Origin: an uncultured Methanomethylovorans sp.
GTDB taxonomy: Archaea; Halobacteriota; Methanosarcinia; Methanosarcinales; Methanosarcinaceae
Assembly: GCA_937968035.1 (NCBI GenBank)
Contig: CALBTS010000056.1
Location: 1 to 8,069, forward strand
Direction: 5' to 3'
Length of the DNA: 8,069 nt
The notes below the pieces were generated by a model. That model searched no databases. It worked only from the letters and a program-made list of their open reading frames with translations, and was not told where the DNA came from. Both the position numbers and the translations under genes were made by a program. Shown here piece after piece: positions 1 to 8,069 of this stretch (the first letter of the stretch is position 1; every line of letters begins with the position of its first letter).

Positions 1-45
1 GATCGTATTCGGTGACTGGAGTTCAGACGTGTGCTCTTCCGATCT
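1..45. other. Illumina TruSeq i7/read-2 adapter remnant (artefact)
   Basis: Positions 12-45 read as the standard TruSeq read-2 adapter, ending in GTGTGCTCTTCCGATCT. The 11 bases before it fit the library layout: GAT is the end of the P7 oligo, followed by an 8-base index CGTATTCG. This is library sequence that was not trimmed and was assembled onto the contig end. It should be removed; genomic sequence begins at about base 46. Recognition is from memory of the adapter sequence, but the match is long and the P7-index-adapter order is exact. Confidence 0.97.
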
Positions 46-247
46 TGTTTAGCCGTAAGTGAAGAAAATGCCCATATCATATTATTACCCTTAAAGGACA
101 ACAATCTTTTACTATTTAATACTAGTCGCAGTATTAATTAAGCATATTTGTAAAAAATAATATATATCTATGTACATGTATTTATATAAGTTTAATTTAT
201 ATGTTATGTGCTAAAACAATTATATGATATTATCACCACAGGACACT
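46..247. other. AT-rich region downstream of cca; no confident gene
   Basis: This stretch separates the adapter from the stop codon of cca and is strongly AT-rich, with runs such as TATATATC and the palindrome TACATGTA at 173-180. In the plus strand one frame is open from base 46 to a TAA at 139-141, giving 31 codons that could be the C-terminal end of a gene cut by the contig edge. In AT-rich DNA an open run this short can arise by chance. A minus-strand ATG near 90 also opens a frame that runs into the adapter. Neither is supported enough to call a gene. Confidence 0.6.
150..160 (-). terminator. Possible T-tract terminator of cca
   Basis: Six A residues at 152-157 on the plus strand give a T6 run on the cca strand about 90 bases after the cca stop codon. 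Archaeal transcription commonly ends at such T-rich runs without needing a hairpin. No strong stem precedes it. The composition of the whole region is AT-rich, so this is a plausible but weak call. Confidence 0.3.
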
Positions 248-1609
248 TTATATCCTGGGCCAATTCATCAGGAACAATTTGAAGTTCATGTCCTGGATAC
301 TATATATCTCACTGTTATGAAGCAGTTCAAATCCGCTTTTTACTGAGGAACTAACCTGTTTACCCATGGAACACGAAGTAAGCCTCTCTTTCAAAAGTGA
401 ACATGCATCAGAATACTTGCGGGGTATTTCTGCTACATAGGTACCGTTTTCTATATAGAATGCAAAAACATTTTCTGCATTTACATATTTGGCTTTGAAG
501 GTTTCGGCATGCTTATGGACCCATACAGGCGGACCCCTGTGCTTCCGCAAGGCTGGAAGAGTGGCAGACATGAGCTCCAGTAATATTACTGTTTTTTGTC
601 CTGACCATGATCCTTTATTAAGGACCTTGAATTCATGCTCTTCAAGCAATGCAACAACTGCAAGCTCCATCTTATACAGTTGTGGATATAGTACATCTTC
701 CACTACATCAGGTGTTTTGAATGTGATAGCAATAAATGCAGTCCCACGTGACCTAAGTCTTTGAAGCAGCTCGCTGTCGGTCACTGATGTGTCAGATCCC
801 GGGAAAAAGAAATCCAATGTAGGAGACAGTAAGAATTCTCTACATGGATCGATGAACATGCAAAACTTATCCAGCGACAAGGCCGCAGCAACATTGCGTT
901 TCGGATCAGTGGGATCCACTACAACGAGCGGCTCTGCATGTTGTGTAGTGCCGTGTGCGTTCAGGTCGATATATGTGCCAGGCTGCCAGCCGCAGGCAGA
1001 TCTGATCACATTCTCAAAAGAACCATATTTTATCACAAGCAGTTCTGTAAGATAACCTGAGAACCCCTGTGTTCTCAGTTCTGAGCCATATACACCTGCT
1101 CCTTTCATGAACTGTTTTAGCAGCAACACGTCCGGTTCAAGTCCCAGAATATTTCTTTTAACAAATTCGTTATGGAAAGGTGTTCTATCAACTGCGGACC
1201 TGATGCATGCAGCGGACTGTACTCTGAAACAGGGGACTATGTCCACATCGAACCCTCTGTATCTCATATTTATGTAAGGGTGTTCAGCATAGCGTTCTTC
1301 AAAAAATTCGGATTCTTCAGCTATTTTTCTTGCAATGGTCAGCCCATTTTTTTCAAGTTCTTCCCTGCTGGCGTTTTCCGGGAACATGATGAATATGTCC
1401 AGATCATGTGTCCCCGATATCCAGGTATTTCTGGCAGCTGAACCGACAAGGCTGGCAGACACATCATCCAGGCCCATTGAGCAGGCTATGAGCTCTACTT
1501 TTTTTACAAGCAACTCTGTTATCTCTTTCAGATGGTCCCTTTCTTCATTTTTTGGACTTATCCTTTGCAGAACGACTGCTCTCAATCCTTTAAGTACATC
1601 GTTTTCCAT
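248..1609 (-). CDS. cca: CCA-adding enzyme (archaeal class I tRNA nucleotidyltransferase)
   Basis: Cytosolic enzyme that builds or repairs the CCA 3' end of tRNA from CTP and ATP without a nucleic-acid template. The 453-residue product is close to the usual archaeal size (437 in Archaeoglobus). The nucleotidyltransferase signature GSAARNTW is at residues 56-63. The metal-binding carboxylates are D69 and D71 in THDLDIFIMFP and D123 in DVDIVPC; the first is Asp where the Archaeoglobus enzyme has Glu. Other family blocks are RYAEHPY (106-112), SAVDRTPFH (138-146), GFSGYLTELL (182-191), VVDPTDPKRNVAA (230-242) and LYPQL (307-311). The frame stays open 39 codons further upstream to an ATG at 1726. 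That extension is low-complexity, unlike the family, and covers the likely promoter, so I chose the ATG at 1609. A GTG at 1618 preceded by AGGA is an alternative. It is transcribed divergently from the protease gene and ends in TAA. Confidence 0.95.
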   Translation of the reverse strand: MENDVLKGLRAVVLQRISPKNEERDHLKEITELLVKKVELIACSMGLDDVSASLVGSAARNTWISGTHDLDIFIMFPENASREELEKNGLTIARKIAEESEFFEERYAEHPYINMRYRGFDVDIVPCFRVQSAACIRSAVDRTPFHNEFVKRNILGLEPDVLLLKQFMKGAGVYGSELRTQGFSGYLTELLVIKYGSFENVIRSACGWQPGTYIDLNAHGTTQHAEPLVVVDPTDPKRNVAAALSLDKFCMFIDPCREFLLSPTLDFFFPGSDTSVTDSELLQRLRSRGTAFIAITFKTPDVVEDVLYPQLYKMELAVVALLEEHEFKVLNKGSWSGQKTVILLELMSATLPALRKHRGPPVWVHKHAETFKAKYVNAENVFAFYIENGTYVAEIPRKYSDACSLLKERLTSCSMGKQVSSSVKSGFELLHNSEIYSIQDMNFKLFLMNWPRI

Positions 1610-1655
1610 AAAAGCCACTTTATGTCCTATGATGCTGCTTATGCTTTTCTTGGAG

Positions 1656-1666
1656 TTATAATTTAT
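1656..1666 (-). promoter_or_regulatory. Candidate TATA box for cca
   Basis: The minus strand reads ATAAATTATAA here, centred about 52 bases before the ATG at 1609. With the usual archaeal spacing of about 25 bases, transcription would start near 1635 and give a leader of about 26 bases. A second AT-rich candidate lies at 1684-1697. Either one would leave out most or all of the upstream 39-codon extension. The whole region is AT-rich, which limits certainty. Confidence 0.4.
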
Positions 1667-1729
1667 GGAGTAGTTACAGCTTGGAAATAAATTTATTATG
1701 TTATTGCAAGTTTGAAAAGCAAACAAATA

Positions 1730-1737
1730 TTATATAC
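1730..1737 (+). promoter_or_regulatory. Candidate TATA box for the protease gene
   Basis: TTATATAC lies about 48 bases before the ATG at 1781, preceded by an A-rich stretch (CAAACAAATA) that could act as the TFB recognition element. Expected transcription start is near 1758-1760, giving a leader of about 20-25 bases that contains the ribosome binding site. This is a typical archaeal arrangement inferred from sequence only. Confidence 0.5.
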
Positions 1738-1766
1738 TTATTTTTATTATATTACTTGTATTGTTT

Positions 1767-1775
1767 AAAGAGGAA
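1767..1775 (+). promoter_or_regulatory. Ribosome binding site of the protease gene
   Basis: AAAGAGGAA, with its GAGG core at 1770-1773, ends seven bases before the ATG at 1781. It fixes the start used here, and the start is followed immediately by a clear signal peptide. Confidence 0.6.
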
Positions 1776-1780
1776 TATAT

Positions 1781-4700
1781 ATGAAGAAAAACCATCTTTT
1801 ACTACTAATTCTTTTTTCTTTGATGTGCACGTCAGGTATTGCTTTTGCGAACTCATCGGTTCCGGTCCAGGAATCAATTAATCCTGCTTTTGTAGCGCAG
1901 TCCACAACACAGGCTCAAAGCGTCGATATGCTGAGCAGCGGGGAGGGGGCCACAGGCCAGTTATCCGATACAATAGACTTCTCTTATATTGATTATTCAC
2001 CTTCCTCTCTAATGCTGGATACTTATCTCCCATATTATGATCTCAGGACGCAGGGGAAGGTCACTTCTGTAAAAGACCAAGGGTCATGCGGTTCATGCTG
2101 GGCCTTTGCATCATATGCCTCCCTTGAATCAACTCTTATGCCAGGTGAAAACCTTGATCTTTCGGAACAGAATCTAAAGAACCTGCATGGATTCGACGTA
2201 GATCCATGCTCAGGAGGAAATGCCCAGATGGCAACTGCATATTTTGCCAGATGGGCTGGTCCTGTATTAGAGTCAAAGGACCCATATGATCCATCCATTA
2301 TTTTCTCTCCTTCTCTGAAAGCTACTAAACATGTGCAGGAATCCATTTTCCTTCCGACAAGGAAATCATCACTAGACAATGATGCTATCAAATGGGCTCT
2401 TTATCAATATGGAGCAGTTTATGCTTCAATGATATGGTCCGATTCATCCTATGATTCTAAGAATAATTCTTATTATTATACAGGTTCTTCTACTACAGGA
2501 GGTCACGGTGTCACTATAGTAGGATGGAACGATAGTTTTGACAGCAAAAGATTCTCTCCTGCTGCCCCAGGCAATGGAGCCTTCATTGTAAAGAACAGTT
2601 GGGGGGATTCATGGGGAGAGGCGGGCTATTTCTATATCTCCTACTACGATTCCAGTTTTGCAAAAAGGAACGTTAATGCCGTTTTCACAGCTGAACAGGT
2701 CAATAATTACGATAATATCTACCAATATGATCCGCTTGGCTGGACAGCATCCGTTGGTTACGGGGATACCGTAGTATGGGGAGCAAATGTGTACACTGCG
2801 TCATCAGATGAGGTTCTGGAAGCAGTATCATTCTATACTACCAGTTCAGGGGTCAGCTATGATGTATCTATTTACACAGATGCCGTTTCCAATCCTATCG
2901 GGGATCTGAAGAGCAATGTTTCAGGCATTTTTGATTATTCCGGTTACCATACTGTAACCTTGGATGATCATGTGGACCTTGACACAGGACAGAATTTCTC
3001 CGTAGTGATCAAATTAACTACTTCAGGATATGGTTATCCTCTTGCCATGGAAGTACCACTGCCTTATCTTTACAGCAGTTCCGCAACATCAAATGCTGAA
3101 GAAAGTTACATCGGGGAAAACGGACAGGTATGGGAGGATATCACATCCGTGTTTCCCAATGCCAATCTCTGTATCAAGGCATTGACATCGGATGCTGTCC
3201 CAATGACGGTGATGAACGCAGATACAGGGAAAACTTACTTCAACATCAGTACTGCTGTGCAGGACCCACTGACACTTCAAGGCCATACTATCCTGGTGGG
3301 TCCCGGAACATTGCAGGATAATGTACGGGTAAATAAAGCACTTACAATAAGGTCGTCCACAGGCGATCCTGATGACACAGTGGTGAAAGCGCTCGATCCT
3401 TCAGGACACGTTTTCTATGTGACGGCTTCCAATGTTTCGATATCAGGTTTTAACGTCACTGGTTCTCTTAATAACAAAGGTATATACATAGACGGAGTAA
3501 AAGGCTGCAGTGTTTATGACAACATTGTTACAAATAACAATTATGGCATATATGTCCGCTCATCCGTGGATGTAACTATTACAGATAATCACGTAACAGC
3601 CAACAATGCAGGTATCCTTCTTAGCGGTTCATCTAATTGTAATGTCCTAGATAATGAAGTAGATGCTAATGCGGGTCAGGGTGTGTACCTGCTCAGCACG
3701 TCAGCATGTGTGGTTAATAATAATACCTTTGATTCCAACTTACAAGGTTTAAGACTGGATGACAGTGTTGATAATTATCTTACAGCCAATAATATCAGTT
3801 CAAGTAATTATGGCATATTGCTGTTATCCTCTTATTCGTTGGATACTGTTTCAGATAATGCAGCAATGGACGGTCCAAATGTTGCTGCGGTCGAACTATC
3901 CGATAAGAGTTCAGCAGGATCTCATCCGAAGCTATTGGGATCGGACAGGATCACTCCCAGATCAACTCATGGAAATGTTCTCGACGGCAATACAATTCGA
4001 TCGAATAGTTATGGTATCTTGTCAAAATACTCGGTTTACAATAATATTGTCAATAATACTTTGTATTCCAATGACCAGGGCATTTACTTTATTGATAGTT
4101 CTTTAAATACTATCCAGAACAACATTCTGGACTCCAACTCGTTACAAGGTATCTACATGCTGGCATCTGACGATAATAATGTGAATAATAATACAATCAG
4201 GCAAAATAATGTAGGCATTCGCCTGCAATCAGGTAACAGGAACATGCTGAATAACAATTCAGTAATATCTAATAGCTACGGTCTATTGTTGTACTCTGCC
4301 ACTGATAGTACTATTTCTGACAACAGCTTATCTTCCAACAACCAGGGGGTCTATCTTGTCAACTGCACTTCCAGTCAGGTATTGAACAACACCGCTTCTC
4401 TTAATGTCTATCAGGGAATTTATATTGTAAGATCTCATGATAATCTGGTTAAGAACAATCAATTGATTCAAAACAAAGCAGGTATCCGTCTTGAGCTAAG
4501 CAATAGCAATGTACTGGATGAAAATATTGCAAGATCAAATAGTTATGGCTTCTTACTGCAATCCGCTGCTGATAACATTATTTCCAACAATGCTGTTTCC
4601 TCCAATAACCAGGGCATTTACTTTATAGACGGTTCTTTCAATACCATCACAGCAAACACAGCAAGTGGCAATACTTTGCAAGGTATCTACCTGGTCAGTT

Positions 4701-5428
4701 CCCATAGCAATGTCATTGAGTATAACCGGGTGCTACAAAGCAAACAAGGTATTCGTCTTCAGTCCAGTGATCAAAATATTTTAGATGGAAATCATCTGCA
4801 GTCAAATTCCTATGGTGCGTTATTGCTTTCCAGTGATAACAATTCCATTCTAGCAAATGCTGCAACAGAAAATGAAATAGGTATAGGTCTGAGTCTTTCA
4901 GATATGAACCTGCTGGCGGACAACGAAGCCCTTAATAGTGCAAGTTCCGGGATATATTTTGATTCTTCAAGCTATAATGATCTCATTTCTAACAGGGCAG
5001 CATACAACAAATATGGAATGCGTCTGTATAAGAGTACACACAATGCACTTGAGGAGAACCGACTTGCAAACAACAAGTATGGTTATCTGGCGCAGTCTTC
5101 AGGTGACAACTTGTTAAAAACCAACAATGTATCGCTCAATGAATGGTGTGGTGTGTATCTGCAATCTTCCGGTTCTAACCTTGTCTTCAACAACATGTTC
5201 AACAATATTAAGAACGTTGTTGATGATGGCTCAAATACCTGGAACATCACAAAGACCACAGGTACGAACATAGCGGGGGGCTCGCACATTGGAGGCAATG
5301 TATGGGCTTCACCCAAAGGAACAGGCTTCAGCCAGACAGCCACGGACGTAGATAAAGATGGGATATGTGACACAAAGTATAACGTGGGAGGTAGTTCTTT
5401 TGACTACCTGCCTCTTTATTTCAGGTGA
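1781..5428 (+). CDS. Secreted C1A (papain-family) cysteine protease with lectin-like domain and NosD-type beta-helix
   Basis: Predicted exported endopeptidase of 1215 residues. Residues 1-23 form a signal peptide (basic MKKNH, hydrophobic core, AFA cleavage site). A short pro-region (24 to about 83) has the NPxF and IDFSYI motifs I associate with this family, with no long I29-type inhibitor visible. The papain-like domain spans about 84-305. Its oxyanion Gln is Q100, the nucleophile C106 in GSCGSCWAF, the general base H242 in GGHGVTIVGW, and N272 in KNSWGDSWGE, so all active-site residues are present. About 308-468 resembles the lectin-like domain that follows C1 proteases in methanogens. About 473-560 resembles the N-terminal cap of NosD-like surface proteins, and about 563-1145 is a right-handed parallel beta-helix. 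The C-terminus carries DVDKDGICD (1189-1197), a possible calcium-binding loop. No membrane anchor, PGF-CTERM or sorting signal is seen, so it is probably secreted or held non-covalently. Domain names are from family knowledge; the substrate is unknown. Confidence 0.9.
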   Translation: MKKNHLLLLILFSLMCTSGIAFANSSVPVQESINPAFVAQSTTQAQSVDMLSSGEGATGQLSDTIDFSYIDYSPSSLMLDTYLPYYDLRTQGKVTSVKDQGSCGSCWAFASYASLESTLMPGENLDLSEQNLKNLHGFDVDPCSGGNAQMATAYFARWAGPVLESKDPYDPSIIFSPSLKATKHVQESIFLPTRKSSLDNDAIKWALYQYGAVYASMIWSDSSYDSKNNSYYYTGSSTTGGHGVTIVGWNDSFDSKRFSPAAPGNGAFIVKNSWGDSWGEAGYFYISYYDSSFAKRNVNAVFTAEQVNNYDNIYQYDPLGWTASVGYGDTVVWGANVYTASSDEVLEAVSFYTTSSGVSYDVSIYTDAVSNPIGDLKSNVSGIFDYSGYHTVTLDDHVDLDTGQNFSVVIKLTTSGYGYPLAMEVPLPYLYSSSATSNAEESYIGENGQVWEDITSVFPNANLCIKALTSDAVPMTVMNADTGKTYFNISTAVQDPLTLQGHTILVGPGTLQDNVRVNKALTIRSSTGDPDDTVVKALDPSGHVFYVTASNVSISGFNVTGSLNNKGIYIDGVKGCSVYDNIVTNNNYGIYVRSSVDVTITDNHVTANNAGILLSGSSNCNVLDNEVDANAGQGVYLLSTSACVVNNNTFDSNLQGLRLDDSVDNYLTANNISSSNYGILLLSSYSLDTVSDNAAMDGPNVAAVELSDKSSAGSHPKLLGSDRITPRSTHGNVLDGNTIRSNSYGILSKYSVYNNIVNNTLYSNDQGIYFIDSSLNTIQNNILDSNSLQGIYMLASDDNNVNNNTIRQNNVGIRLQSGNRNMLNNNSVISNSYGLLLYSATDSTISDNSLSSNNQGVYLVNCTSSQVLNNTASLNVYQGIYIVRSHDNLVKNNQLIQNKAGIRLELSNSNVLDENIARSNSYGFLLQSAADNIISNNAVSSNNQGIYFIDGSFNTITANTASGNTLQGIYLVSSHSNVIEYNRVLQSKQGIRLQSSDQNILDGNHLQSNSYGALLLSSDNNSILANAATENEIGIGLSLSDMNLLADNEALNSASSGIYFDSSSYNDLISNRAAYNKYGMRLYKSTHNALEENRLANNKYGYLAQSSGDNLLKTNNVSLNEWCGVYLQSSGSNLVFNNMFNNIKNVVDDGSNTWNITKTTGTNIAGGSHIGGNVWASPKGTGFSQTATDVDKDGICDTKYNVGGSSFDYLPLYFR
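3533..3799 (+). repeat. Early copy of the 89-residue four-coil super-repeat
   Basis: Residues 585-673 hold four coils with turn glycines at 589, 611, 634 and 656. The next coil begins at glycine 678, giving spacings of 22, 23, 22 and 22. This is the same order and register as the main array downstream. The copy is diverged in sequence. It is followed by a coil at 678 resembling the first coil of the unit, then by an irregular segment (residues 699-740) before the main array. Confidence 0.65.
4001..5068 (+). repeat. Four tandem 267-base (89-residue) super-repeats in the beta-helix
   Basis: Residues 741-1096 form four consecutive 89-residue units starting at residues 741, 830, 919 and 1008. 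The first three begin with the same SNSYG; so does the fourth, and a partial fifth begins with NNKYG at 1097. Within each unit the coil glycines are spaced 22, 23, 22 and 22. The glycines are at 745, 767, 790, 812; 834, 856, 879, 901; 923, 945, 968, 990; and 1012, 1034, 1057, 1079. Each coil has the pattern xGI.L..S..N.I..N, which fits stacked beta-strands with an asparagine ladder. The coil types can be told apart: SNSYG-LLL, NNQGIYF, LQGIY and GIRLQS. Confidence 0.85.
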
Positions 5429-5444
5429 TCGAAAATTATCGCAG

Positions 5445-5486
5445 AAAGAGAACATTTCTTCAGAATAGTCCTATGTTCTCTTTTTT
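5445..5486 (+). terminator. Hairpin plus T-tract at the convergent protease/proB junction
   Basis: AAAGAGAACAT (5445-5455) pairs perfectly with ATGTTCTCTTT (5473-5483) around a 17-base loop, and the 3' arm runs into T6 (5481-5486). This has the form of an intrinsic terminator for the protease transcript, starting 17 bases after its TGA. The loop contains the proB stop codon, and the 3' arm and T-tract lie within the last codons of proB. Transcripts from the other side would also form the stem, but with a poorer T-run after it. Confidence 0.7.
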
Positions 5487-6590
5487 GATCACATGGTTAT
5501 AATTCTTGTATCCAAGGAGATCTGTTATCTGGTTAGTGTGCTGGCCTTTGATCTTGGTCAGTTCACTTGATGAGTAATCAGTGATCCCTTTTGCAAAGAC
5601 TTCCCCGTTGGATCTTATTTCGATGATATCCCCTCTTCTGAAATCACCGTTAACATTGGTGATGCCAGAAGGCAGGAGGCTCATACTATTTTTGATGGCT
5701 TCTTTTGCACCCTCATCAACTTCCACTGAACCGCAGGATCTGGATAACAAGATCCAGCGTATCCTGTTTGTGTGGACTTCCTTGTTTGCCATGAATAGCG
5801 TACCTATTTCCTCGCCATCGAGTAATCTGAGCAGGATGTCTTTTTCTCTGCTGCTGGCGATTATCGTGTGGCAGCCCGCAAGACCACAGATCTTGGCAGC
5901 CATTATTTTTGTTCGCATGCCTCCCACGCCTTTGAGACTTGTCGGATTCCCTCCATAGCTTTCCACTTCAGGAGTTATCTCCTCTACAAGGTGAAGCAGC
6001 TTAGCACCATGATTGTTGTGGGGGTTCTTGTCATAGAGCCCATCAATATCCGAGAGGATTATAAGGAGATCTGCTTCTGTTTTGCTGGCAACCATGGCAG
6101 ATAGCTTGTCATTGTCCCCAAAAGTAGCTTCGATCTCATGTACGCATATAGGGTCGTTCTCATTGATTATGGGGATAACTCCATAACTAAGGAGGGTGTG
6201 CATACTGTTTCTGAGATTGAGGTATGTTAACCTGTTAGAAAAGGACTCATAAGTAAGGAGCAACTGAGCTACCTTCAGTCCATATTTGCTGAAGGCTTTA
6301 CTCCATTCCTGCATGAGGATGCTCTGTCCAACAGCTGCTGCAGCCTGTCTTACAGGTATTTCCCGTGGCCTTGAGTCAAGATCGAGCACGTCCACTCCAA
6401 GTCCTATGGAGCCTGAACTTACTATTACTACCTTCTTTCCTGAATTATGCAGTGTAAAAACCTGTGAAGCTATGGAATCCAAGAAACCAGGGCTTAGTTT
6501 ACCTTCATCCTGGTTTATGGATGTAGTCCCTATTTTCACCACAATTTTGTTTATGTCGCCTAAAAGCTCTTTCCTGCTGCTCAAGAACAT
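5460..6590 (-). CDS. proB: Glutamate 5-kinase
   Basis: Phosphorylates L-glutamate with ATP to gamma-glutamyl phosphate, the first and usually proline-inhibited step of proline synthesis. The 376-residue product has an amino-acid-kinase domain at about 12-260 and a C-terminal PUA domain at about 275-360, the standard full-length layout. Visible motifs are KIVVKIGTTS (15-24), VSSGSIGLG (57-65), IINENDPI (141-148), FGDNDKLSA (157-165), LSDIDGLYDKNP (179-190) and GVGGMRTKI (221-229). It is the second gene of the operon and its ATG overlaps the end of proA by 10 bases (ATGTTCTTGA). The only Shine-Dalgarno-like site, AGAGG at 6593-6597, is just two bases from this ATG but eight bases from the TTG at codon 3. 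Translation may therefore start at 6584, giving a TTGA stop-start overlap. Confidence 0.96.
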   Translation of the reverse strand: MFLSSRKELLGDINKIVVKIGTTSINQDEGKLSPGFLDSIASQVFTLHNSGKKVVIVSSGSIGLGVDVLDLDSRPREIPVRQAAAAVGQSILMQEWSKAFSKYGLKVAQLLLTYESFSNRLTYLNLRNSMHTLLSYGVIPIINENDPICVHEIEATFGDNDKLSAMVASKTEADLLIILSDIDGLYDKNPHNNHGAKLLHLVEEITPEVESYGGNPTSLKGVGGMRTKIMAAKICGLAGCHTIIASSREKDILLRLLDGEEIGTLFMANKEVHTNRIRWILLSRSCGSVEVDEGAKEAIKNSMSLLPSGITNVNGDFRRGDIIEIRSNGEVFAKGITDYSSSELTKIKGQHTNQITDLLGYKNYNHVIKKENIGLF

Positions 6591-7960
6591 TGCCTCTGCA
6601 TAGTTTCTTTTTCTGTTATGACATCAGAGAGTTCTTTGTTCAGCTCTCTGTGAGTGAATTTCTTTGCTTCAGGTCCTACATAGTCAGCAACTTTATCGCC
6701 ATTTCCTATGAGAACATATTTGTAGATCATAAGACCTTCCATGCCCACAGGTCCTCTGGCATGGATCTTGTTAGTGCTTATACCGACTTCCGCTCCTTTA
6801 CCATATCTGAAACCATCGGCAAATCTTGTGGATGCATTTATCATGACGCTGGACGAATCCACAAAGTTAGCGAACTTTTTCTTTTTCTTCTGGTTCTCGG
6901 TAACAATGGCGTCAGTGTGATGTGATCCATATGTATTGATATGCTCAATGGCCTCTTCTATTGAACTCACCAGCTTTATGGAAAGAATAAGGTCGTTGTA
7001 CTCGGTACTCCAATCTTCTTCCACCGCGCGTACCAGATTTTTAATGAAATCTATATGCTCCAGTATCGCAAAGGATCCTTTATCACAACGTAATTCCACA
7101 GCTGCACTGTCCAGCATCTGGGCCATTTTAGGCAGGAACTTCTCCGCAATCCTTTCGTGCACCAATAATGTTTCCATAGCATTGCATACGGCAGCATACT
7201 GCACTTTTGAATCAAAACAGATGGTGTAGGCTTTTGCCAGATCTGCATCCTCATCAACGTATACATGGCAGATCCCGTCGGCATGGCCGAGTACTGATAT
7301 CTTTGTATTGTCCTGAATGAACTTTACGAATGCGTTAGAGCCTCTGGGTATGAGCAGGTCGATATAGGTATCCATTGCCAGGATATCCATTACTTCTTCC
7401 CGCGTTTCCATGAGCTGGAATGCCCCTTTTGGGATCCCTTCCACTTTCTCGACAGCTTCTACCAATATATCGAATATGGCCCTGTTTGAGTTAAGTGCCT
7501 CTCTTCCACCTTTGAAAATGGTGGAATTCCCGCTTTTAAGACAAAGTGCCATGATCTGGGGAACAACATCCGGTCTGGATTCAAATATCACTCCTATCAG
7601 ACCAATTGGACAACTTACCTGATAAAGCTCCAGGCCATTGTCAAGCTCCAGAGAACTCATCGTCCTGCCAACAGGGTCTTCGAGTTTTATTACATCTCTT
7701 ATGCCAGCTATCATGCCATTTATCTTACTGTCGCTGACCTTCAGCCTGTCTACCATTGCCTGGGTAAGTTCACCTTTTCTCTGGGCTTTCTCAGCGACTT
7801 CCAGGTCTCTTATATTAGCTGAAAGTATGGCTTGCCTGTTGATGTCCAGTGCATTTGCCATTTCTTCAAGTGCACGGTTCTTTATATCCGTGCTCACGCT
7901 TGCAAGGGTGATGGATGCTTTTTTAGCTTCTATCACCTTTGCTTCTATCTCTGTTACCAT
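6581..7960 (-). CDS. proA: Glutamate-5-semialdehyde dehydrogenase (gamma-glutamyl phosphate reductase)
   Basis: NADPH-dependent reduction of gamma-glutamyl phosphate to glutamate-5-semialdehyde, which cyclises to pyrroline-5-carboxylate. The 459-residue product belongs to the aldehyde dehydrogenase superfamily. Numbering from the start chosen here, family blocks are KKASITLASVS (13-23), FESRPDVVPQ (126-135), STIFKGGREA (146-155), LLIPRGS (202-208), the catalytic C259 in QYAAVCNAMETLLVH, and ARGPVGMEGLMIYKY (401-415). The frame runs 15 codons further upstream to an ATG at 8005. I chose 7960 for three reasons: AGGTGG is eight bases before it, MVTEIEAKV matches where family members begin, and the only good TATA box is too close to 8005 for that ATG to be in the transcript. 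The charged tail after about residue 430 is somewhat longer than in bacterial ProA (about 417 residues). It is the first gene of the proA-proB operon. Confidence 0.96.
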   Translation of the reverse strand: MVTEIEAKVIEAKKASITLASVSTDIKNRALEEMANALDINRQAILSANIRDLEVAEKAQRKGELTQAMVDRLKVSDSKINGMIAGIRDVIKLEDPVGRTMSSLELDNGLELYQVSCPIGLIGVIFESRPDVVPQIMALCLKSGNSTIFKGGREALNSNRAIFDILVEAVEKVEGIPKGAFQLMETREEVMDILAMDTYIDLLIPRGSNAFVKFIQDNTKISVLGHADGICHVYVDEDADLAKAYTICFDSKVQYAAVCNAMETLLVHERIAEKFLPKMAQMLDSAAVELRCDKGSFAILEHIDFIKNLVRAVEEDWSTEYNDLILSIKLVSSIEEAIEHINTYGSHHTDAIVTENQKKKKKFANFVDSSSVMINASTRFADGFRYGKGAEVGISTNKIHARGPVGMEGLMIYKYVLIGNGDKVADYVGPEAKKFTHRELNKELSDVITEKETMQRQCS

Positions 7961-7968
7961 GGATCGAA

Positions 7969-7974
7969 CCACCT
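7969..7974 (-). promoter_or_regulatory. Ribosome binding site deciding the proA start
   Basis: On the minus strand AGGTGG lies eight bases before the ATG at 7960 and matches the GGAGGTGA core expected from the archaeal 16S 3' end. No comparable site is seen just before the alternative ATG at 8005. Confidence 0.6.
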
Positions 7975-8015
7975 GAGCTTGTTTCTGAAAGAGGGGATGT
8001 ATCATTTATTCAGAC

Positions 8016-8022
8016 TATATAA
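8016..8022 (-). promoter_or_regulatory. Candidate TATA box of the proAB operon
   Basis: The minus strand reads TTATATA here. About 25 bases downstream puts the transcript start near 7992-7994, leaving a leader of about 30 bases before the ATG at 7960. The alternative ATG at 8005 would lie only about 11 bases from the box and so upstream of the expected transcript start. The remaining bases to 8069 show no further gene. Confidence 0.55.
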
Positions 8023-8069
8023 CTACTAACTGATATTGCAATTAGTTCTTAAGCCTTATACTTATCGAT

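Follow-up and report, generated by a model that had tools for sequence, protein, structure and literature searches.

The DNA considered here, called the window throughout, is the whole of an 8,069-nucleotide stretch from an uncultured, probably methane-producing archaeon, Methanomethylovorans sp. (GenBank assembly GCA_937968035.1, contig CALBTS010000056.1, positions 1 to 8,069). It carries the genes cca, proB and proA and, between cca and proB, an open reading frame of 1215 residues that is the subject of this report. The predicted product comprises, in order, a domain of the papain family of cysteine proteases, a lectin-like domain and a predicted beta-helix of 24 coils (Table 1). Our main finding concerns the helix. 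Its coils recur in groups of four, with a period of 89 residues, and this period can be followed along one edge of the predicted surface.

The helix is built from parallel beta-helix (PbH1) repeats of 22 residues (TIGR03804, 281.3 bits; cut-off 19.45), each marked by a coil glycine. The glycines lie at residues 567, 589, 611, 634, 656 and 678; following an insert, at 745, 767, 790, 812, 834, 856, 879, 901, 923, 945, 968 and 990; and then at 1012, 1034, 1057, 1079, 1101 and 1124. The first-pass annotation of the window had described spacings that cycle as 22, 23, 22, 22 over four full units, and this is what we find from glycine 745 to glycine 1101. All 17 spacings of the main run are identical in eight of eight sequences: P0001, which is the window's protein save for three residues, and seven further relatives listed as 77-91% identical to it over their full length. 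Gapless autocorrelation of the protein (residues 736-1100) gives 2.08 at lag 89 (43.5% identity) and 1.85 at lag 178, against 0.85 at lag 22 (26.8% identity). Self-identity of the DNA is 53.0% at 267 bases, 50.8% at 534 and 39.2% at 66, with a mean of 26.6%. Because the 23-residue coils put lag 22 at a disadvantage, the 17 coils from 745 to 1101 were also compared in register. Similarity is then 2.06 at a lag of four coils and 1.94 at eight, lags 1-3 and 5-7 giving 0.82-1.26, and none of 20,000 coil permutations reaches the lag-4 score. The period of 89 residues, or 267 bases, thus prevails over the 22-residue offset, as had been anticipated; equal scores for the two offsets, which the first-pass annotation would have taken as a refutation, are not seen.

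The cycle begins one unit sooner than was described. Glycines 589, 611, 634, 656 and 678 are likewise spaced 22, 23, 22 and 22, and the count is five full units and one partial, rather than four full units. For five long spacings among twenty all to share one phase the chance is 2.6e-4, computed post hoc. We refer to the four coils of each unit, in order, as the first to fourth types. That these types keep their order had also been claimed, and identity between units is indeed higher in phase than in any of the three rotations for 10 of 10 unit pairs; the outer units have, however, drifted, and coils 611 and 656 (unit 0) and 1034 and 1057 (unit 4) most resemble coils of another type. The skip of one coil noted for the closing partial unit is borne out: the three coils nearest to coil 1124 (879, 968 and 634) are all of the third type. 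The insert comprises 45 residues predicted to be disordered, and the span between its flanking glycines varies from 66 to 70 residues among the eight sequences. At 67 residues in the window's protein, this span equals 89 minus 22, so the insert region may be a decayed unit.

Table 1. Features of the window, with positions in the window and residues of the 1215-residue protein (pLDDT, predicted local distance difference test)
Feature	Position	Strand	Basis or remark
cca	251-1726	-	window gene
Open reading frame, 1215 residues: C1A protease, lectin-like domain, beta-helix	1781-5428	+	Pfam, NCBIfam
Likely signal peptide (residues 1-23)	1781-1849	+	judged by eye from the sequence
Papain-family cysteine protease domain (residues 86-288)	2036-2644	+	PF00112
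Lectin-like domain (residues 313-469)	2717-3187	+	PF18560, 173.1 bits
Predicted beta-helix, 24 coils (residues 558-1146)	3452-5218	+	family models, coil glycines, structure model, fold matches
Unit 0 (residues 580-668), then one further first-type coil at 678	3518-3784	+	outside the region annotated in the first pass
Insert in first turn of coil 678 (residues 685-729)	3833-3967	+	pLDDT <50; variable in the eight sequences
Unit 1 (residues 736-824)	3986-4252	+	autocorrelation, coil glycines
Unit 2 (residues 825-913)	4253-4519	+	autocorrelation, coil glycines
Unit 3 (residues 914-1002)	4520-4786	+	autocorrelation, coil glycines
Unit 4 (residues 1003-1091), diverged	4787-5053	+	coil glycines, coil comparison
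Partial unit (residues 1092-1136), in which first-type coil 1101 is followed by third-type coil 1124, with no second-type coil	5054-5188	+
Arg658, first Arg of the +2 ladder	3752-3754	+	other Args at 4220-4222, 4487-4489, 4754-4756, 5021-5023
Tyr744, one of seven Tyr preceding a first-type glycine	4010-4012	+	Tyr in 56/56 cells
Longer turn, strand 3 to strand 1, before Gly790	4136-4147	+	strand list of the model
Further longer turns	3668-3679, 4403-4414, 4670-4681, 4937-4948, 5138-5149	+	strand list of the model
proB	5463-6590	-	window gene
proA	6584-8005	-	window gene

To locate the period within the coil, positions were numbered from the coil glycine (0) and tested by permuting phases within units (500 permutations). 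Identity within and between phases, respectively, is 0.65 and 0.15 at +2, 0.48 and 0.20 at -1, 0.67 and 0.43 at -3, 0.25 and 0.09 at -2, and 0.54 and 0.23 at +11. The in-phase excess is strong at +2, -1, -3 and +11 (0/500), present at -2 (4/500), +7 (6/500) and +9 (1/500, with a size of only 0.06), and weak at +4, +5, +12 and +17; positions 0, 1, 3, 6, 14, 16 and 19 have no clear phase signal by these permutations. The period is written, then, mainly on the predicted surface, and the core carries little of it (at +11 and, slightly, +9). This is a finding beyond the first-pass annotation. At +2, in strand 1, the four coils of a unit have Leu, Tyr, Tyr and Arg (in unit 0, Tyr, Leu, Tyr and Arg). 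Across the eight sequences the fourth-type Arg is present in 40 of 40 cells, and the third-type Tyr in 40 of 40 in the full units and 7 of 8 in the partial unit. A further Tyr directly precedes every first-type glycine (residues 588, 677, 744, 833, 922, 1011 and 1100). Because +2 alternates with aliphatic residues at +1 and +3, and because it can be Arg, we infer that its side chains face outward.

An AlphaFold2 model of the protein (mean pLDDT 75; mostly 85-97 in the coil region) places the extra residue of the long coils. Where the strands are distinct, strand 3 begins 15 residues past the glycine in 22- and 23-residue coils alike, and the gap that follows strand 3, up to strand 1 of the next coil, measures 3-5 residues in each of the six long coils but 0-3 elsewhere. 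With the start of strand 3 unchanged and the following gap wider, the extra residue forms a bulge in the third turn, which adjoins the +2/-1 edge, and this bulge would recur at one and the same corner. One coil in four is thus longer at a fixed place, as had been noted, and in the model the turn is the same in all six. A regular feature along the helix face, such as a binding site, had been proposed as well: the pattern is well supported, in that the longer turn borders a conserved edge of period four, and a binding site would be our interpretation of it.

The edge is conserved more strongly than in comparable proteins. Three families sharing these kinds of domain, each represented by eight aligned sequences, served as controls; no member belongs to the 19 significant four-coil proteins described below, 17 of the 24 having nine coils in a row for testing. 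Gapped coils were dropped, which leaves 18 of 20 in control 1 and 30 of 33 in control 3; in the Methanolobus control, where divergence is greater, 6 of 7 coils are free of gaps and one of the eight members could be tested for the cycle. Pooled over -2, -1, +2 and +4, 66 of 96 cells (69%) are invariant in the window family, against 15/72, 7/24 and 31/120 (21-29%) in the controls. In the core the figures are 137/216 against 115/162, 19/54 and 159/270, and at other surface sites 62/216 against 53/162, 6/54 and 91/270, so that both classes are comparable between the window family and the best-matched control. Fisher's test of the edge against that control gives 2.5e-10 with the gapped coils still included (17/80). 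Within a helix that is otherwise acidic, the four edge rows also stand alone in being clearly basic and aromatic: they have 12 Lys or Arg and 6 Asp or Glu, and 23 of 96 residues are aromatic if His is counted. Elsewhere on the surface, the rows counted hold 11 Lys or Arg against 33 Asp or Glu.

Growth by duplication of 267-base blocks had been put forward as the origin of the period. Unit-pair identity is 34-51% in phase and 20-34% out of phase; units 1-3 are closest to one another (42-51%), and pairs involving unit 0 or 4 share 34-38%. This excess, together with the phase at predicted-inward +11, fits block duplication. Little synonymous or DNA trace of copying survives, however. At lag 267, agreement at codon positions 1, 2 and 3 is 0.561, 0.662 and 0.367, with backgrounds of 0.276, 0.266 and 0.290, third positions being only slightly above theirs (standard deviation 0.028). 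Codons agree at 52 of 121 identical residues, 46 being expected from usage, and Tandem Repeats Finder, at score 30, reports no array in the repeat stretch. With synonymous sites near background and no tandem array, the blocks are ancient, and what keeps the period visible is mainly selection on a few surface positions, not recent copying.

How unusual is a four-coil cycle? Among 47 runs of at least nine coils found with the NosD model (40 loci of 79 fetched, picked by hand from those listed, mostly as long open frames, and thus a ranked rather than a random sample), lag 4 is the best lag in none. Adding two runs from locus L151, chosen by similarity (lag 4 best, z 1.9 and 1.6), gives a set of 49 runs from 41 loci, none of which reaches the window at +2 or -1; at +2 the lag-4 statistic is 0.71 in the window and at most 0.30 in the others. 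Of 230 proteins found by similarity to the window, 145 have at least nine coils in a row, and at z >= 3 the best lag is 4 in 19, 1 in 8, 2 in 3 and 3 in 3. The 19 are P0001-P0008, eight members of a family of about 870 residues, P0165, P0056 and P0170, the last a single further case. Among 28 runs from 19 loci, likewise chosen by similarity, those at z >= 3 have lag 4 in two (L159, with spacing of the 870-residue type, and L166, z 3.1), lag 3 in two, lag 1 in two and lag 5 in one. We considered whether such helices generally group their coils by four and rejected the idea, given 0/47 in the NosD-model runs and lag-4 cases found by similarity. Other cycles also occur: P0131, P0123 and L165 have three-coil cycles, and P0206 a two-coil cycle. 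We found nothing on a four-coil period in titles and abstract openings of the literature outside subscription journals, and term searches of parts of PMC2447325, PMC3361143 and PMC4460559 gave nothing on NosD helices.

The 870-residue cell surface proteins (P0142, P0154, P0158, P0169, P0173, P0178, P0180 and P0196; the named members are from Methanosarcina) have a four-coil cycle of their own. As in the window, the 23-residue coil follows the Tyr-Gly coil, and two of three models read (among P0196, P0173, P0142 and their kin) appear to place the extra residue in the turn where the window has it, the third giving no clear position. These proteins differ from the window's in having no protease domain listed, further long coils in some units, and other outward residues (Trp at +2; Lys, Trp and Arg at +4). 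Their phase signal, at -1, +2 and +4 and also at +17 and +19, is broader. Descent of the two families from a common four-coil unit was tried and rejected: the best 22-residue phase aligned the long coils, but the 22-residue frames compared carry a register shift, and once its effect is removed the phase match is not significant (when the comparison is confined to -2 to +12, the expected rotation is best in 5 of 8 comparisons, with 124-742 of 2000 permutations). P0165 and P0056 form a second other four-coil family, with phase signal at -1, +4 and +12 (in P0165 also +10 and +17), again broader than in the window. Both are from a contig of 212,222 bases and have Arg-Asp-Val at +4.

The remainder of the protein is related to characterized systems. 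PF00112 (peptidase family C1A) is matched at 110.8 bits, the cut-off being 20.7, and by motif and analogy with Cwp84 of Clostridioides difficile, Gln100 is assigned as the oxyanion Gln and Cys106 and His242 as the catalytic residues; all are invariant in the eight sequences. The protein is likely secreted, and papain-type cutting of proteins is predicted. Cwp84, which matures a surface-layer (S-layer) protein, has the same succession of C1A protease and lectin-like domain (PDB 4ci7, 4d59; window residues 88-470 match, with E 3.6e-33 to 4d59 over residues 90-470). In Cwp84 these are followed by cell-wall-binding repeats (PMC4089489, in part); in the window's protein the beta-helix occupies that place, and the wall-binding repeat PF04122 is not among its Pfam hits. 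The ligand of the Cwp84 lectin-like domain is left open by its authors in the portion of PMC4089489 concerned. No anchor family is found among the Pfam hits of the frame. Surface proteins of Methanosarcina and Methanolobus with C1, lectin and NosD (and sometimes PKD) domains (e.g. P0030-P0040 and P0050) share its three kinds of domain, but none is among the 19 four-coil proteins, and their edge is not specially conserved. In P0024 (partial, Methanomethylovorans sp.) the same protease-lectin half is followed instead by a disaggregatase repeat, which gives the C-terminal half the look of a targeting module that can be exchanged. That repeat, PF06848, is not among the Pfam hits of the window's proteins. 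P0082, P0091, P0078 and P0073 are protease-lectin proteins with 93-residue tandem repeats (71-83% identity at lag 93) and no listed NosD domain.

The protein does not qualify as NosD of nitrous oxide reductase maturation. TIGR04247 is matched at 198 bits, below its cut-off of 300, and cca, proB and proA adjoin the frame in place of a nos neighbourhood, both in the window and in L001 (Methanococcoides sp. EBM-47), where cca, the protease gene, proB and proA follow in the same order. Copper binding, which the NosD name might suggest, was rejected on the missed cut-off and on a count of just 5 Cys, 7 His and 6 Met in 589 residues. The L001 protein differs from P0003 (Methanomethylovorans sp.) at 1 of 1218 residues. 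Among the matches listed for 185 genomes of the order, G001 alone has a comparable helix (79%), and 146 others have a helix hit of at most 42%. The proB start overlaps the proA stop by about 10 bases (minus strand, 6581-6590). No RNA family reaches its gathering threshold in the window. Positions 12-45 match exactly what we take to be an Illumina sequencing-library adapter, so this contig end is likely an artefact.

Glycan enzymes, NosD and tailspikes are among the closest fold matches. AlgE4, PL6 and GH28 enzymes and phage tailspikes are right-handed beta-helices, as is predicted for the window's protein, and share 10-19% identity with it among the matches listed. They have one active groove and are not known to carry a repeated site. 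In GH28 helices the sheet formed by strand 1 lies at the centre of the binding groove. Bonds to the sugar chain are proposed to come from the first and third turns, and the catalytic site includes Arg256 and Lys258, two apart on strand 1 (PMC8952511, in part). The S-layer of Methanosarcina cells is glycosylated, and one of two types also bears a uronic-acid polysaccharide (PMC12369344, in part). Taken together, the repeated edge likely binds a ligand, whether glycan or protein. The explanation we favour, though we hold it with somewhat less than even confidence, is that of a likely secreted protease-lectin protein whose four-coil helix presents a row of equivalent sites and so holds the enzyme on a surface polymer, most probably a glycan. 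Each 89-residue unit would contribute one putative site, made of the extra residue, the Leu-Tyr-Tyr-Arg pattern and the further Tyr along one edge. The helix would stand in place of the wall-binding module of Cwp84-type enzymes and keep the protease bound while it trims or processes a surface protein, a role suggested by Cwp84.

Several observations weigh against this explanation. The second-type Tyr is looser than its fellows (kept in 7/8 sequences at residue 769, 5/8 at 858 and 8/8 at 947, varying at 1036, with Leu in unit 0), and Tyr at +2 is frequent in such helices generally (38%; Arg, 6%). Taken whole, the helix is acidic (29 Lys or Arg, 46 Asp or Glu). The four edge positions were pooled after the tables had been seen, and +4 alone gives no lag-4 signal in the window (-0.03). 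The 870-residue family has a four-coil cycle and no excess of conservation at the edge (53/80 against 119/180 at other surface sites; 68/84 against 150/189). For yeast Awp beta-helices, in which strand 1 bears regular outer ladders, a mammalian glycan array showed no binding (PMC8746771, in part).

The edge may instead be a protein contact, with the helix packing beside itself or an S-layer and the four-coil rhythm being the register of that contact. An interface would be conserved as this edge is, Tyr and Leu are prominent there as well as Arg, and a self-associating bacterial beta-helix, 4kh3, is among the fold matches (rank 39). Similarity of fold, however, is no evidence of function, there is no known lattice or partner for this helix, and Arg at each fourth coil would in our judgement be unusual for a plain hydrophobic contact; we consider this unlikely, but a serious contender. 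The blocks are old, and the rhythm could also be a relic of their duplication, without any ligand, kept because Tyr before glycine packs against the longer turn. Phase at predicted-inward +11, and slightly at +9, would be expected of this, and outer ladders can simply stabilise coils (PMC8746771, in part). The remaining core positions lack clear phase, though, and invariance at -2, -1, +2 and +4 exceeds that of the three control families two- to threefold, which leaves a packing relic improbable. That the helix itself cuts or changes glycans, with its site on strand 1, we regard as very improbable: AlgE4, inulin lyases and PL6 lyases do occur among the fold matches, but at least five equal repeats are unlike one active site, and no model of such an enzyme family is among the Pfam or NCBIfam hits.

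NosD-type beta-helices are matched in 136 of 149 sampled genomes of the order, and we know of no ligand identified for any archaeal protein of this kind. Here the sequence singles out one edge, with defined, repeated and largely invariant residues, and the question of the ligand becomes one of mutagenesis of a single edge. The approach offers a simple test for other helices: align the coils, seek a superperiod, and see whether it is located on the surface. The coil rise usual in beta-helices is 4.8 Å, which would place the sites about 19 Å, or four coils, apart. A bolder proposal, and one we think rather doubtful, is that the helix is a molecular ruler, its identical Tyr-Tyr-Arg sites, set every four coils by the longer turn, matching the repeat of a surface polymer and thereby placing the protease in register on the coat. 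Were this true, the four-coil cycles of three families (the window's, the 870-residue proteins of Methanosarcina, and P0165 and P0056) would mark a general route from plain beta-helices to repeated receptors.

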